From contig NZ_LXHE01000002.1 in NCBI RefSeq assembly GCF_001656295.1, forward strand, positions 310,001 to 374,000: a DNA stretch of 64,000 bases. Reading direction: 5' to 3'. The position numbers were made by a program, and so were the translations under genes. A model generated the notes under the pieces. The model was not told the origin of the DNA and did not search any database. It was given only the letters and a program-made list of their open reading frames with translations. This document shows positions 21,450 to 24,812 of the stretch, piece after piece. Position 1 is the first letter of the stretch; each line of letters starts with the position of its first letter. Source of the DNA: Moraxella catarrhalis (lineage in GTDB: Bacteria; Pseudomonadota; Gammaproteobacteria; Pseudomonadales; Moraxellaceae).

Positions 21450-22565
21450 ATGTCAATACACAATCCGATTAAACGCCGACCCACCAAAAAAATCCATGTT
21501 GGCAATGTCGCCATCGGCGGTGATGCACCCATCAGCGTGCAAAGTATGACAAATACAAATACCTGTGATGTTGATGCAACAGTTGCACAAATTCAGCGAT
21601 GCGTGGACGCAGGTGCGGACTTGATGCGTGTATCGACACCAACGATGGAAAGCGTTGCTGCCTTCGCTGAGATAAAAAAACGCGTATCCATTCCACTTAT
21701 TGCCGATATTCATTTTGATCACAAAATCGCCATTGCGGTGGCAGATGTGGGTGCAGACTGCCTGCGTATCAATCCAGGCAATATTGGCAATGATCAAAAA
21801 GTCAAAGAAGTGGTTGCGGCGGCACGCCATCATAATGTGCCGATTCGTATCGGTGTGAATGCAGGCTCACTTGAAAAGGATTTACAAAAAAAATATCGAG
21901 AACCGACAGGTGAGGCGATGCTAGAATCGGCGTTACGCCACATTGATATTTTAGAAAATCTTAATTTTCAGAATTATAAAATCTCAGTCAAAGCCTCCAA
22001 TGTATTTTTAACCCTTGATGCGTATCGGCTGATTTCAGCACAAATTGATAATCCATTGCATCTTGGCGTTACCGAAGCGGGCGTATATCGCACTGGCACG
22101 GTCAAATCTGCCATTGCTTTGGGCGGTTTGCTACTTGATGGCATTGGCGATACCATGCGTATCTCTTTGGCGGCAGCACCAGAAGAAGAGATTAAAATCG
22201 GCTTTGACATTCTAAAATCACTGGGCATTCGTAGTAATGGCGTCAATTTTATTGCTTGCCCAAGTTGTAGCCGTCAAGAGTTTGATGTGATTAAAGTGAT
22301 GAATGAGCTTGAGGCTCGCTTAGAGGATATCCGTGAGCCGCTAGATCTGTCAGTTATTGGCTGTAAAGTCAATGGACCAGGTGAAGCCAAAGAAGCGACG
22401 ATCGGTGTCGTGGGAGCAAGCCCCAATAGTTTGGTTTATAAACATGGTGCAAAAAGCCATCTGATTGATACCAAAAAATTGGTAGATGAGATTGAGGCGA
22501 TGGTGCGTGCACAAGTCAAAGACATTCAAGATAAACGGGCAAATGAGATCATTCGCATAGGCTAA
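21450..22565 (+). CDS. ispG: 4-hydroxy-3-methylbut-2-en-1-yl diphosphate synthase
   Basis: About 371 residues, the usual length. The N-terminal TIM barrel shows V-Q-S-M-T-N-T-N and R-I-N-P-G-N-I-G. The 4Fe-4S ligands are in A-C-P-S-C-S-R (about two thirds along) and later G-C-K-V-N-G-P-G. It converts methylerythritol cyclodiphosphate to HMBPP in the non-mevalonate isoprenoid pathway. ATG 21450 gives M-S-I-H-N-P and is preferred over a TTG at 21426. The next gene begins only 4 bases after the stop. ispB, a downstream user of isoprenoid precursors, lies at 35765. Confidence 0.97.
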
Positions 22566-22569
22566 ATGT

Positions 22570-23520
22570 ATGAGCGATCAGGATAAATTGGGCTTTGTGG
22601 ATTTGGCGGTGCATGCGATGAAAATGGTCAATCGACCAATGACAACGACGCAGCTGTGGGATTTTATACTTATAAATAAGCTGCATCATCGGTTATACAC
22701 TTTTGATGTACAAAAAAATAAATTTTCTGGTAAAACGCCATCGGTGACTTTTGCCACCACGATTTCTCAAAATAAACATTTTTTTGAAGCAATCCCAAAT
22801 ACCAAGCCAAAACAATATATTTTAAAATCTCAGCAAACAAAGTTGGAAGTAACAAAAAATCTTGATCAAACTACTCATCGCTTAGCAAAATATCATGAGC
22901 GAGAGTTACATCCTATCTTGACTTATTTTTTGAAATCTGATAAATATTTTCAAGCTTATTCAAAAACCATTTTTCATGAAGTCAGTCCAAAAGGAGCAAA
23001 AGGCGAGGATAAATGGCTGTATCCAGATATGGTGGCGGTGCATTTTGAATACGCCAATTACCAAAAAAACTATGTACTTGATTTTATTACGAAATTTAAT
23101 AAGCCGCCAATAAAAATCTACTCATTTGAGATTAAAAAAGAGCTAAATTTTAGTAATTATAAAGAAAGCTTTTTTCAGGCAGTCAGTAACTCAAGTTGGG
23201 CAAATGAAGGTTATTTGGTGGCGGCACAAATCCTGCCTGATGGTCAATTTATCGAGGCGCTCAAAAAACTTAGCCAAAGCTTTGGGATTGGTATTATTGA
23301 GCTTAATAGACACAATGTGAAACAAAGTAAGATTTTATCACCTGCCAAATTTAAAGAGATGATGGATTATTCGGTGGTTAATGAATTGGCGAATAAAAAT
23401 GCCAATTTTTCACAATTTTTAAAAACCATTATCGACTTTGATGTCAATCACCCCCACCGATTTAAAGGTGAGTTTGATAAAATTTTGAACTTACATGAAC
23501 CCAATGACAGCAATCATTGA
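22570..23520 (+). CDS. HARE-HTH / PD-(D/E)XK nuclease-like protein (COG2958-like)
   Basis: A 316-residue protein. Residues about 5-85 resemble the HARE-HTH winged-helix domain (F-V-D-L-A-V-H-A-M, then G-K-T-P-S-V-T-F-A-T-T-I-S and a closing Y-I-L). Residues about 105-250 look like a PD-(D/E)XK endonuclease fold: Y-P-D153-M-V, then F-E187-I-K189-K, then F-F-Q-A-V-S. Such two-domain proteins are widespread and uncharacterised; a DNA-cleaving or DNA-sensing role is inferred from the folds. The gene begins 4 bases after ispG and ends 23 bases before hisS, so it rides in a core operon. Its codons are richer in A and T (many AAA and AAT) than its neighbours, which suggests transfer. No partner methylase is adjacent. 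Confidence 0.72.
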   Translation: MSDQDKLGFVDLAVHAMKMVNRPMTTTQLWDFILINKLHHRLYTFDVQKNKFSGKTPSVTFATTISQNKHFFEAIPNTKPKQYILKSQQTKLEVTKNLDQTTHRLAKYHERELHPILTYFLKSDKYFQAYSKTIFHEVSPKGAKGEDKWLYPDMVAVHFEYANYQKNYVLDFITKFNKPPIKIYSFEIKKELNFSNYKESFFQAVSNSSWANEGYLVAAQILPDGQFIEALKKLSQSFGIGIIELNRHNVKQSKILSPAKFKEMMDYSVVNELANKNANFSQFLKTIIDFDVNHPHRFKGEFDKILNLHEPNDSNH

Positions 23521-23543
23521 TTGTATATAATTAAGGAATATTT

Positions 23544-24812
23544 ATGAATAAAATTACCGCTATCCGTGGCTTTAATGATGTGCTGCCCGAGCAAACACCA
23601 GCATGGCGTGCAATGGAACGAACATTAATTGAGGTGATGGATAGCTATGGCTATAGCCAAATCCGTTTGCCTTTGGTTGAAGAAACTCAGCTATTTGCAC
23701 GAGGTGTCGGTGAAGCGACAGATATTGTTGAAAAAGAAATGTTTGGCGTTGTACATGGCGGAAATAAGGGCGATGAAGGATCTTCTTTTACTTTACGCCC
23801 CGAAGGTACTGCAGGATGTGTACGGGCAATTGTTGAGCATAACTTAACTCGTGGCGATACACCAAAATTATGGTACTTAGGTCCGATGTTTCGTTATGAA
23901 CGCCCCCAAAAAGGTCGCTATCGCCAATTTCATCAATTGGGCGTAGAGTATTTTGGCGCTGAGTTGCCTGATGCTGATGCTGAGTTGATCGCTATGACTT
24001 ATCATATGTGGCAAAAACTGGGCATCAGTGAGCATGTGACACTTCAGCTAAACACCTTGGGCGAGACTGATGAGCGTGCGGCATACAAATCAGCACTGGT
24101 TGAATATTTGACAACACACCAAGAGGCTTTGGATGATGATTCAAAACGCCGTTTAAATACCAATCCACTGCGTATTTTGGATTCCAAAGATGAAAACACT
24201 CAACAAATCCTAAAAAACGCCCCTAAGCTTGGTGAGTTTTTGGGTGAGGCATCGTTGGCTCATTTTGAAAAAGTACAAAATTATTTGTCCGCATTGGGTA
24301 TTTCGTTTGAGATAAACGATAAATTGGTGCGTGGCTTGGATTATTATAACAAAACCGTTTTTGAATGGGTAACTGACAAATTAGGTTCACAAGCGACCGT
24401 CTGCGGTGGCGGTCGTTATGATGGCTTGGTGGGTATCATCAAAGGCAAAGCTGAGCAGTCAGAGCCTGCGGTTGGGTTTGCTATGGGTCTTGAACGCTTA
24501 ATGCTATTGATTGATGCCGTTAATCCTTATCAAGCAGCATCTTGGTGTGATGTTTTTGTGATCGCCCACCCTGATTATTATATTGATGGCTTAAAATACG
24601 CCGAATCACTTCGCTTGCGTCAGAATAATTTACGCGTCAAAATGGCAAGTGCGACAGGCTTAAAATCACAAATGAAAAAAGCTGATAAATCAGGTGCAGC
24701 TTATACGGTCATCATCGCAGAAGATGAGGTAAATGCCAACCAAATCACCATTAAGACAATGGCAACGGGTGAACAACGCCGTGCACCCATTGATTATCAA
24801 TTTATACGATAA
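23544..24812 (+). CDS. hisS: histidyl-tRNA synthetase
   Basis: A 422-residue class II synthetase of normal length. It shows motif 2 ([10 protein letters not shown]), the histidine-specific loops L-V-R-G-L-D-Y-Y and G-G-G-R-Y-D-G-L, and motif 3 [10 protein letters not shown]-terminal anticodon-binding domain follows. It charges tRNA-His in the cytoplasm. A clear AAGGA precedes the ATG. It lies between the nuclease-like gene and yfgM; without that insertion it would adjoin ispG as in related genomes. Confidence 0.97.

Follow-up and report, generated by a model that had tools for sequence, protein, structure and literature searches.

The gene at positions 22,570–23,520 on the forward strand of the window, the 64,000-nucleotide stretch of Moraxella catarrhalis DNA analysed here, is a real, intact and accessory gene, and comparison with annotated relatives places its product in the HrgA family, which takes its name from hrgA of Helicobacter pylori. 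It is lodged between ispG and hisS, in a slot that behaves like that of a minimal mobile element, and its 316-residue product is predicted to join an N-terminal HARE-HTH domain to a PD-(D/E)XK nuclease. On balance, we lean slightly towards the view that it acts as a stand-alone restriction nuclease, possibly modification-dependent, with expression from the host operon and transformation as its means of spread. The HrgA family is already known but poorly understood, and the window gene adds a member to it.

The reading frame starts with ATG, encodes 316 amino acids and contains no internal stop. Upstream lies ispG (gcpE; 21,456–22,565, + strand; Pfam GcpE, 6.9e-142) and downstream hisS (23,544–24,812, + strand; Pfam tRNA-synt_His, 1.1e-43), each of which is present in 20 of 22 Moraxella genomes. 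The first-pass annotation of the window had thus named both flanks correctly (Pfam: GcpE, histidyl-tRNA synthetase), and the gaps that it gave, 4 bases after ispG and 23 bases before hisS, agree with the end of ispG at 22,565 and the start of hisS at 23,544. Direct reading of the latter gap (23,521–23,543, + strand) reveals a hisS leader with an AAGGA ribosome-binding-type sequence, retained 3' of the window gene; leaders of the AAGGA or AGGAA type also precede hisS in Moraxella relatives, both where the slot is empty and where it is occupied. The start of the four other intact Moraxella copies can overlap the ispG stop, while the window copy begins 4 bases past it. It was likewise rightly noted that the gene is richer in A and T than its neighbours: among 49 non-overlapping window ORFs of at least 150 amino acids (mean GC 0.446, SD 0.027), it shows the lowest GC (0.343) and GC3 (0.332), and four Moraxella relatives at the ispG–hisS site are similarly AT-rich (GC 0.30–0.35 versus 0.44–0.48 in the rest of the locus). 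The ten pairs among the five intact Moraxella copies yield pN/pS values of 0.26–0.40, a purifying signal obtained at high pS (0.61–0.72), which is near saturation.

While the product had initially been described as an uncharacterised COG2958-type protein, a known family is available for it, given that plasmid-borne relatives are annotated as HrgA. A tblastn search matched the window protein to 25 plasmid records; among the 20 of these 25 matches listed, 11 carry the HrgA annotation and two, from Persicobacter and Leptospira, are full-length matches named "HTH domain-containing protein". Two Helicobacter proteins annotated as HrgA match with E-values of 2e-45 and 3e-45, establishing homology, and the identity to Helicobacter plasmid HrgA amounts to 42–43% over residues 92–287 or 101–287 of the window protein. 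Since the window protein alone has no match in Pfam, NCBIfam, PADLOC or PHROGs at E-values up to 10, the domain assignments given below rest on its relatives and on a structure model. Searches of named phages by tblastn, with the window protein and the Proteus form as queries, returned nothing, and a single-sequence scan of IMG/VR confirmed no relative; an alignment-based scan of the same resource identified 63 loci (52 clusters at 98% identity), some of which may represent cellular islands rather than viruses. We found no paper on hrgA in Moraxella and no mention of COG2958 in the open-licence literature, and the accessible portions of open-licence papers on hrgA contain no description of HrgA biochemistry.

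The N-terminal part of the protein (about residues 1–90; 22,570–22,839, + strand) is predicted to form a HARE-HTH domain of the winged-helix type. Pfam PF05066 does not match the window protein directly at E-values up to 10. However, a hold-out HMM built from seven relatives that are Pfam-positive and lie outside Moraxella gives residues 1–100 a score of 27.7 bits, as compared to 9.8 bits for the best of 200 shuffled sequences. Of the 21 relatives examined with Pfam, some of which have another N-terminus, eight score above the PF05066 cutoff: L013, L014, L090 and L091 in a first set of ten and L101, L158, L161 and L162 in a second set of ten, with none in the remaining set of one (L215). One of the eight, L013, aligns to residues 10–307 of the window protein. 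The match in L012 stays under the cutoff and L215 lacks a Pfam HARE match, and most other relatives that fail have a different N-terminus. In structure alignments, residues 1–90 of the model match winged helices, with PHF1 at Z 9.6 and, lower, RpoE at about 7.5. A second form of the family carries an N-terminus that appears winged-helix-like by eye, with no naming Pfam match in the members scanned. Two further relatives (L097:3377-4681 and L156:4482-5666) combine an HrgA-type nuclease domain with a long N-terminal part that looks unlike both other forms and has no Pfam match that names it, which suggests an exchange of the reading domain.

A low-confidence linker (residues 92–104; 22,843–22,881, + strand; pLDDT < 50) leads to the putative nuclease core (about residues 107–260; 22,888–23,349, + strand). 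The residues P152-D153, E187-I-K189 and Q203 had been numbered correctly from the start. D153 of the PD motif (23,026–23,028, + strand), E187 and K189 of the (D/E)XK motif (23,128–23,136, + strand) and Q203 in the helix with the sequence FQAVSNSSWA (23,176–23,178, + strand) are invariant in alignments of 21 and of 32 sequences, the larger set overlapping the smaller one. E110 and F202 are invariant in both as well, S185 and S206–A211 are so in the 21-sequence alignment, and P152 is invariant in the smaller and nearly so in the larger set. AlphaFold2 modelled the full protein from the 32-row alignment with a mean pLDDT of 86.5 (pTM 0.65) and the catalytic part alone with a pLDDT of 87.5 (pTM 0.85). 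The canonical PD-(D/E)XK core follows the order alpha-beta-beta-beta-alpha-beta. The model reproduces this order, with a helix at 110–123, strands at 130–133, 154–159 and 181–192, a helix at 197–208 and a strand at 213–221, and it places D153 and E187/K189 where they are expected.

Structural comparisons point in the same direction, although Foldseek, which counts against this assignment, found no match below an E-value of 1e-3, whether with the catalytic part or with the model as a whole. In VIA, the best matches of the catalytic part were SPO1766 (Z 9.3, rmsd 5.9) and PaqCI (Z 9.3, 134 residues aligned, rmsd 3.2), followed by AF1548 (8.0), a Pyrococcus EndoMS-type (EndoMS/NucS) protein (7.9, 100 residues aligned, rmsd 2.9), AF2093 (7.5), AspBHI (6.5), HindIII (6.0), EcoT38I (5.9), MspJI (5.8), FokI (5.7) and Hjc (about 5), keeping in mind that Z-scores of 8–10 are just modestly above the stated background of the tool and that values below 8 alone are not strong. 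We take SPO1766, PaqCI, AF1548, EndoMS, AspBHI and HindIII to be PD-(D/E)XK enzymes, and most of the best 50 rows are nucleases, with a few unrelated proteins lower down. PaqCI, a joint best match that reaches Z 9.8 with the full model, differs from the window protein in that it is a type IIS enzyme, about 500 residues long, with 10% identity over the aligned part. Together, the Pfam HARE matches of relatives, the hold-out HMM, the invariant residues and the AlphaFold2 model with its structural matches support the predicted combination of HARE-HTH and PD-(D/E)XK domains, including the core whose presence in a model had been proposed as a check. The assignment as a PD-(D/E)XK nuclease appears well supported, and a DNA-targeting role, as deduced from this architecture, is supported with it.

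The position of the gene was compared across 22 Moraxella genomes, seven of which contain a match to the window protein. In six of them, it lies between ispG and hisS (G000, the window genome, and G001, G009, G010, G011 and G019), with one internal stop in the G010 copy; the seventh match (G012) is a second-form relative located after glyS. The interval is readable in 17 of the 22 genomes; in G015, G016 and G017, ispG and hisS fall on separate contigs, and both genes went undetected in G007 and G014, leaving these five unjudged. Among the readable intervals, six hold hrgA, six hold other genes (G002, G003, G005, G006, G008 and G012; 865–2410 bases) and five hold no callable gene (G004, G013, G018, G020 and G021; 36–298 bases). 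The site thus combines conserved flanks with different cassettes or none, the pattern that defines a minimal mobile element, and the patchy presence of hrgA in a variable slot shows that it behaves like one. This occupancy, with one of six copies broken, contradicts the earlier suggestion that residence in an essential operon makes the gene hard to lose, as do the broken or fragmented copies that are frequent in Campylobacterales and Neisseriaceae. In a tree of ispG and hisS from the 17 genomes, the hrgA carriers are scattered and form no single clade, which fits either ancient presence with subsequent losses or transfer through the flanks. We also considered whether the slot is a defence hotspot, an idea that its other content does not support: the eight other slot genes scanned, from four of the six genomes with other genes there, comprise one solute-binding protein, one sub-cutoff YceI match and six genes without a Pfam match. 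By eye, several of the other slot genes start like lipoproteins or secreted proteins.

In wider groups, the gene occurs in 22 of 299 Moraxellaceae (either form), 53 of 298 Campylobacterales and 14 of 83 Neisseriaceae genomes. Its limitation to 22 Moraxellaceae genomes means that it is not a core housekeeping gene, and the patchiness in both slot and family bears out its accessory distribution; the view of it as a single gene is supported as well. Copies in pieces or with internal stops were seen in Neisseriaceae (L227, L228, L230 and L233–L235) and Campylobacterales (G753, G766, G779, G811, G812, G837 and G885); in L230, two hrgA pieces about 720 bases apart enclose an ORF that looks transposase-like by eye. 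In 44 of 5426 genomes of E. coli, a remnant of at most 97 bases from the start of the second form persists while the rest of the gene is missing; at the DNA level, nothing in E. coli matched the window gene. The same remnant is seen in enterobacterial plasmids such as those of Klebsiella.

Our survey of chromosomal neighbourhoods covered 70 loci: five Moraxella loci at the site, all 16 other matches in Moraxellaceae, 7 of 13 from a class sample, the 30 listed for Campylobacterales (53 matching genomes) and 12 of 20 from Neisseriaceae, after setting aside the window itself, fragments in the class sample and eight Neisseriaceae fragments. Sixty of the 70 loci were classed as intact, 40 being of the HARE type and 20 of the second form, as classified by an N-terminal profile with the window among its training rows and with mechanically assigned gene starts. 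A same-strand gene lies within 60 bases upstream in 29 of the 40 HARE-type copies and within 5 bases or overlapping in 24, compared to 21 and 9 of 54 baseline genes in the window (Fisher 0.0017 and 2e-5, values that are descriptive only, since loci with a common slot are not independent observations and a single window provides the baseline). An ABC-F group of seven copies (L209, L215 and L217–L221) has weaker HARE scores (22–52 bits); without it, the counts are 22 of 33 and 17 of 33. The 11 copies that are not tightly spaced upstream are L192, which lies 64 bases after pheS, L205–L207, L210, L213, L214, L216, L222, L225 and L226. Altogether, HARE-type copies occupy nine neighbourhoods, namely ispG|hisS, tyrA-aroA|cmk, rnj|kpsF, hisA|hisF, add|queF and pheS|pheT as well as positions after an rluB-like gene, a U32 peptidase gene and an ABC-F gene, as identified by NCBIfam or Pfam on one or two representatives each and by BLAST for the others. 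In Moraxellaceae, the second form follows glyS (five intact copies) or a ubiH-family gene (three), mostly less tightly. At one Neisseriaceae locus (L224, genome G966), situated before pheT, the hrgA-bearing ORF has a nucleotidyltransferase-like (MNT) sequence at its beginning, and ORFs ahead of it resemble MNT and HEPN sequences by eye, so this slot may hold a toxin–antitoxin-like pair beside hrgA.

The case for a role in restriction or defence is one of guilt by association, built on the neighbours of relatives. In a Proteus plasmid and in L185, a second-form gene is flanked by hsdS on one side and hsdR on the other; in a Shewanella plasmid, such a gene immediately precedes hsdR, in Vibrio it comes two genes behind HsdR, and in L181 it follows an HsdR-like gene. 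Moreover, the fetched stretches of 23 of the 63 IMG/VR loci (21 clusters) contain an HsdR-, HsdM- or HsdS-like gene, although some of these matches may be other helicases because they are mostly only 22–36% identical. This linkage to hsd genes is seen for second-form relatives and is absent at the window site. No type I-like gene was found at the seven IMG/VR loci with a HARE-like N-terminus, two of which begin at a contig end, no type I match in the 16 other Moraxellaceae regions and no HsdR- or HsdS-like gene within about 1.5–8 kb of the 40 intact HARE-type chromosomal copies. HsdM-like matches occur at four of these 40 loci, the three recovered on re-check being weak (22% identity, or 61 residues at 38%). 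On the other hand, DNA methyltransferase genes adjoin four HARE-type copies of Campylobacterales (C5 in L198; N6/N4 in L211, L214 and L222), and L199 and L207 have fragments of such genes no more than 1.5 kb away. By eye, the C5 methyltransferase frame upstream of hrgA in L198 (L198:2447-3457) appears to end in the tail of the rluB-like gene that occupies this place in L197. Two null results count against restriction or defence: no restriction or methyltransferase gene is adjacent at the Moraxella site, and no PADLOC model matches the window protein; nine of ten relatives likewise gave nothing, and L091 a single weak AbiEii match (E 0.0032). Taken together, we consider a defensive role to be moderately supported.

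If the protein recognises modified DNA, the nature of the modification is of interest. The idea that HrgA excludes C5 methylation is not supported: among the five genomes with an intact copy, G009 and G019 contain C5 methyltransferase genes as well, whereas G000, G001 and G011 have none. Because of this coexistence, any dependence on 5-methylcytosine would need a specific context, and a generic 5-methylcytosine-dependent activity is not favoured by these gene contents. As a separate observation, G001 and G010 share 99–100% identical IspG and HisS proteins, the former having an intact hrgA and no C5 methyltransferase match and the latter combining two C5 methyltransferase genes with an hrgA that is broken; this would fit C5 exclusion, in one pair only. 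The window genome also contains a 725-residue frame (G000:C7:3011-4807) with two matches to D12-class adenine methyltransferases, which is possibly a FokI-type double methyltransferase.

Comparison with known systems places the window gene in a familiar yet distinct setting. In H. pylori, hrgA is reported to replace hpyIIIR in the hpyIII locus and to be a homologue of C. jejuni cj1602 (PMC4687069, PMC6563999); the hpyIII methyltransferase gene is found downstream of it, and the accessible part of the latter report calls the significance of the replacement unknown (PMC6563999). The same text describes an hrgA gene of A. baumannii that adjoins the gene for the beta subunit of glycyl-tRNA synthetase without a modification system (PMC6563999), matching the glyS neighbourhood found here, and another partial source mentions a Campylobacter hrgA that replaces no restriction system (PMC4615327). 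The window protein shares with Helicobacter HrgA a homologous catalytic region, as judged from the Helicobacter plasmid proteins, and its nature as the product of a lone accessory gene. Unlike H. pylori hrgA with its methyltransferase gene, it is accompanied by ispG and hisS, and the Helicobacter plasmid protein L092 differs further in that Pfam does not detect HARE-HTH in it. Because HrgA members occupy many places, the hpyIII-type restriction locus is a feature of H. pylori and not of the family. By description, the same domain combination occurs in HARE-HTH–REase fusions linked to Dnd and BREX systems (PMC10853773, PMC12839542), whose genomic setting is unlike ispG and hisS; the available passages propose a discrimination of modified DNA for such fusions (PMC10853773) and consider HARE-HTH more likely to sense cytosine modifications (PMC11037411). 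The Drg nuclease is described as encoded by an AT-rich gene at a leuS/dam locus; its target is methylated DNA, and no methyltransferase of its own accompanies it (PMC4269198). The Drg/DpnI case thus resembles ours, by description, in having an AT-rich nuclease gene beside a tRNA synthetase gene; Drg itself cuts Gm6ATC. Finally, minimal mobile elements were defined in Neisseria by conserved flanks that enclose different whole-gene cassettes (PMC3082526), and a restriction cassette has been reported between pheS and pheT in this genus (PMC7973814). The ispG/hisS site follows the same pattern, and HrgA itself is found at pheS|pheT, with the difference that our comparison of ispG–hisS is between species rather than strains.

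In the reading towards which we lean, the HARE-HTH domain would recognise DNA by either a base modification or some feature of its sequence, and the PD-(D/E)XK domain would cut the recognised DNA with the help of metal ions, such that a single protein without an adjacent methyltransferase might restrict incoming phage, plasmid or transforming DNA. The protein would probably be translated from the ispG–hisS operon, its gene having hardly any leader or none, and the spread of the gene would resemble that of minimal mobile elements, with recombination taking place in the conserved flanks of naturally competent hosts. Natural competence is a property of the genera concerned.

Several other explanations deserve consideration. 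The similarity of the catalytic part to the Pyrococcus EndoMS-type protein and Hjc, together with the selection against amino-acid changes, could indicate a sequence- or structure-specific repair or recombination nuclease (EndoMS/NucS- or Hjc-like) that is carried as an operon accessory. Its sparse occurrence in all three groups, the many broken copies and the ties of relatives to restriction genes in Proteus, Shewanella and the IMG/VR loci make this unlikely. These same ties, with the second form at hsdS/hsdR, before hsdR or near type I-like genes, might instead mean that the protein serves type I restriction-modification systems in an accessory or backup capacity and stands alone in Moraxella; the lack of HsdR- and HsdS-like genes at the 40 HARE-type loci, with HsdM-like matches at only four, and of type I matches in the 16 other Moraxellaceae regions render it distinctly unlikely.

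Two further ideas were weighed. A DNA-binding regulator of the host operon, with a nuclease core that is structural or inactive, would agree with the structural matches of residues 1–96, which include chains of RNA polymerase delta (RpoE; Z about 7.5), and with the fact that the gene abuts or overlaps ispG in all six Moraxella carriers, but the PD-(D/E)XK residues are invariant and, because the relatives adjoin many unrelated genes, there is no common regulon; we regard this as highly improbable. Barely plausible, in our estimation, is a selfish nuclease of the homing kind, which would promote its own spread by cutting ispG–hisS alleles that are empty. It would account for the repeated occupation of the same slot inside a clade, and the best phmmer match in the PDB, albeit with an E-value of only 0.015, is a putative homing endonuclease (5gkk, residues 196–316). 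However, a family profile finds no PDB sequence, the relatives reside in nine or more unrelated neighbourhoods, the junctions vary among species and five Moraxella sites are empty.

It is tempting to extend the restriction reading to the whole family and to view HrgA proteins as stand-alone restriction nucleases with exchangeable N-terminal readers that spread by lodging, promoterless, in narrow gaps within housekeeping operons of naturally competent bacteria, a generalisation that we consider doubtful at present. Surveys of strains and virulence genes in H. pylori feature hrgA, as far as the accessible parts of these reports show. Our analysis gives the HrgA family a biochemical prediction, with a HARE-HTH reader and a PD-(D/E)XK cutter, as well as target residues and homologues outside Helicobacter. 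The family itself being known, it is the pattern of operon lodging that makes the finding interesting: the repeated insertion into housekeeping operons suggests that genes of the restriction type can also occur outside defence islands, at sites that neighbourhood-based discovery would overlook. If the generalisation were true, HrgA would be an operon-borne gatekeeper acting on both transforming and phage DNA, and it might favour its own slot.
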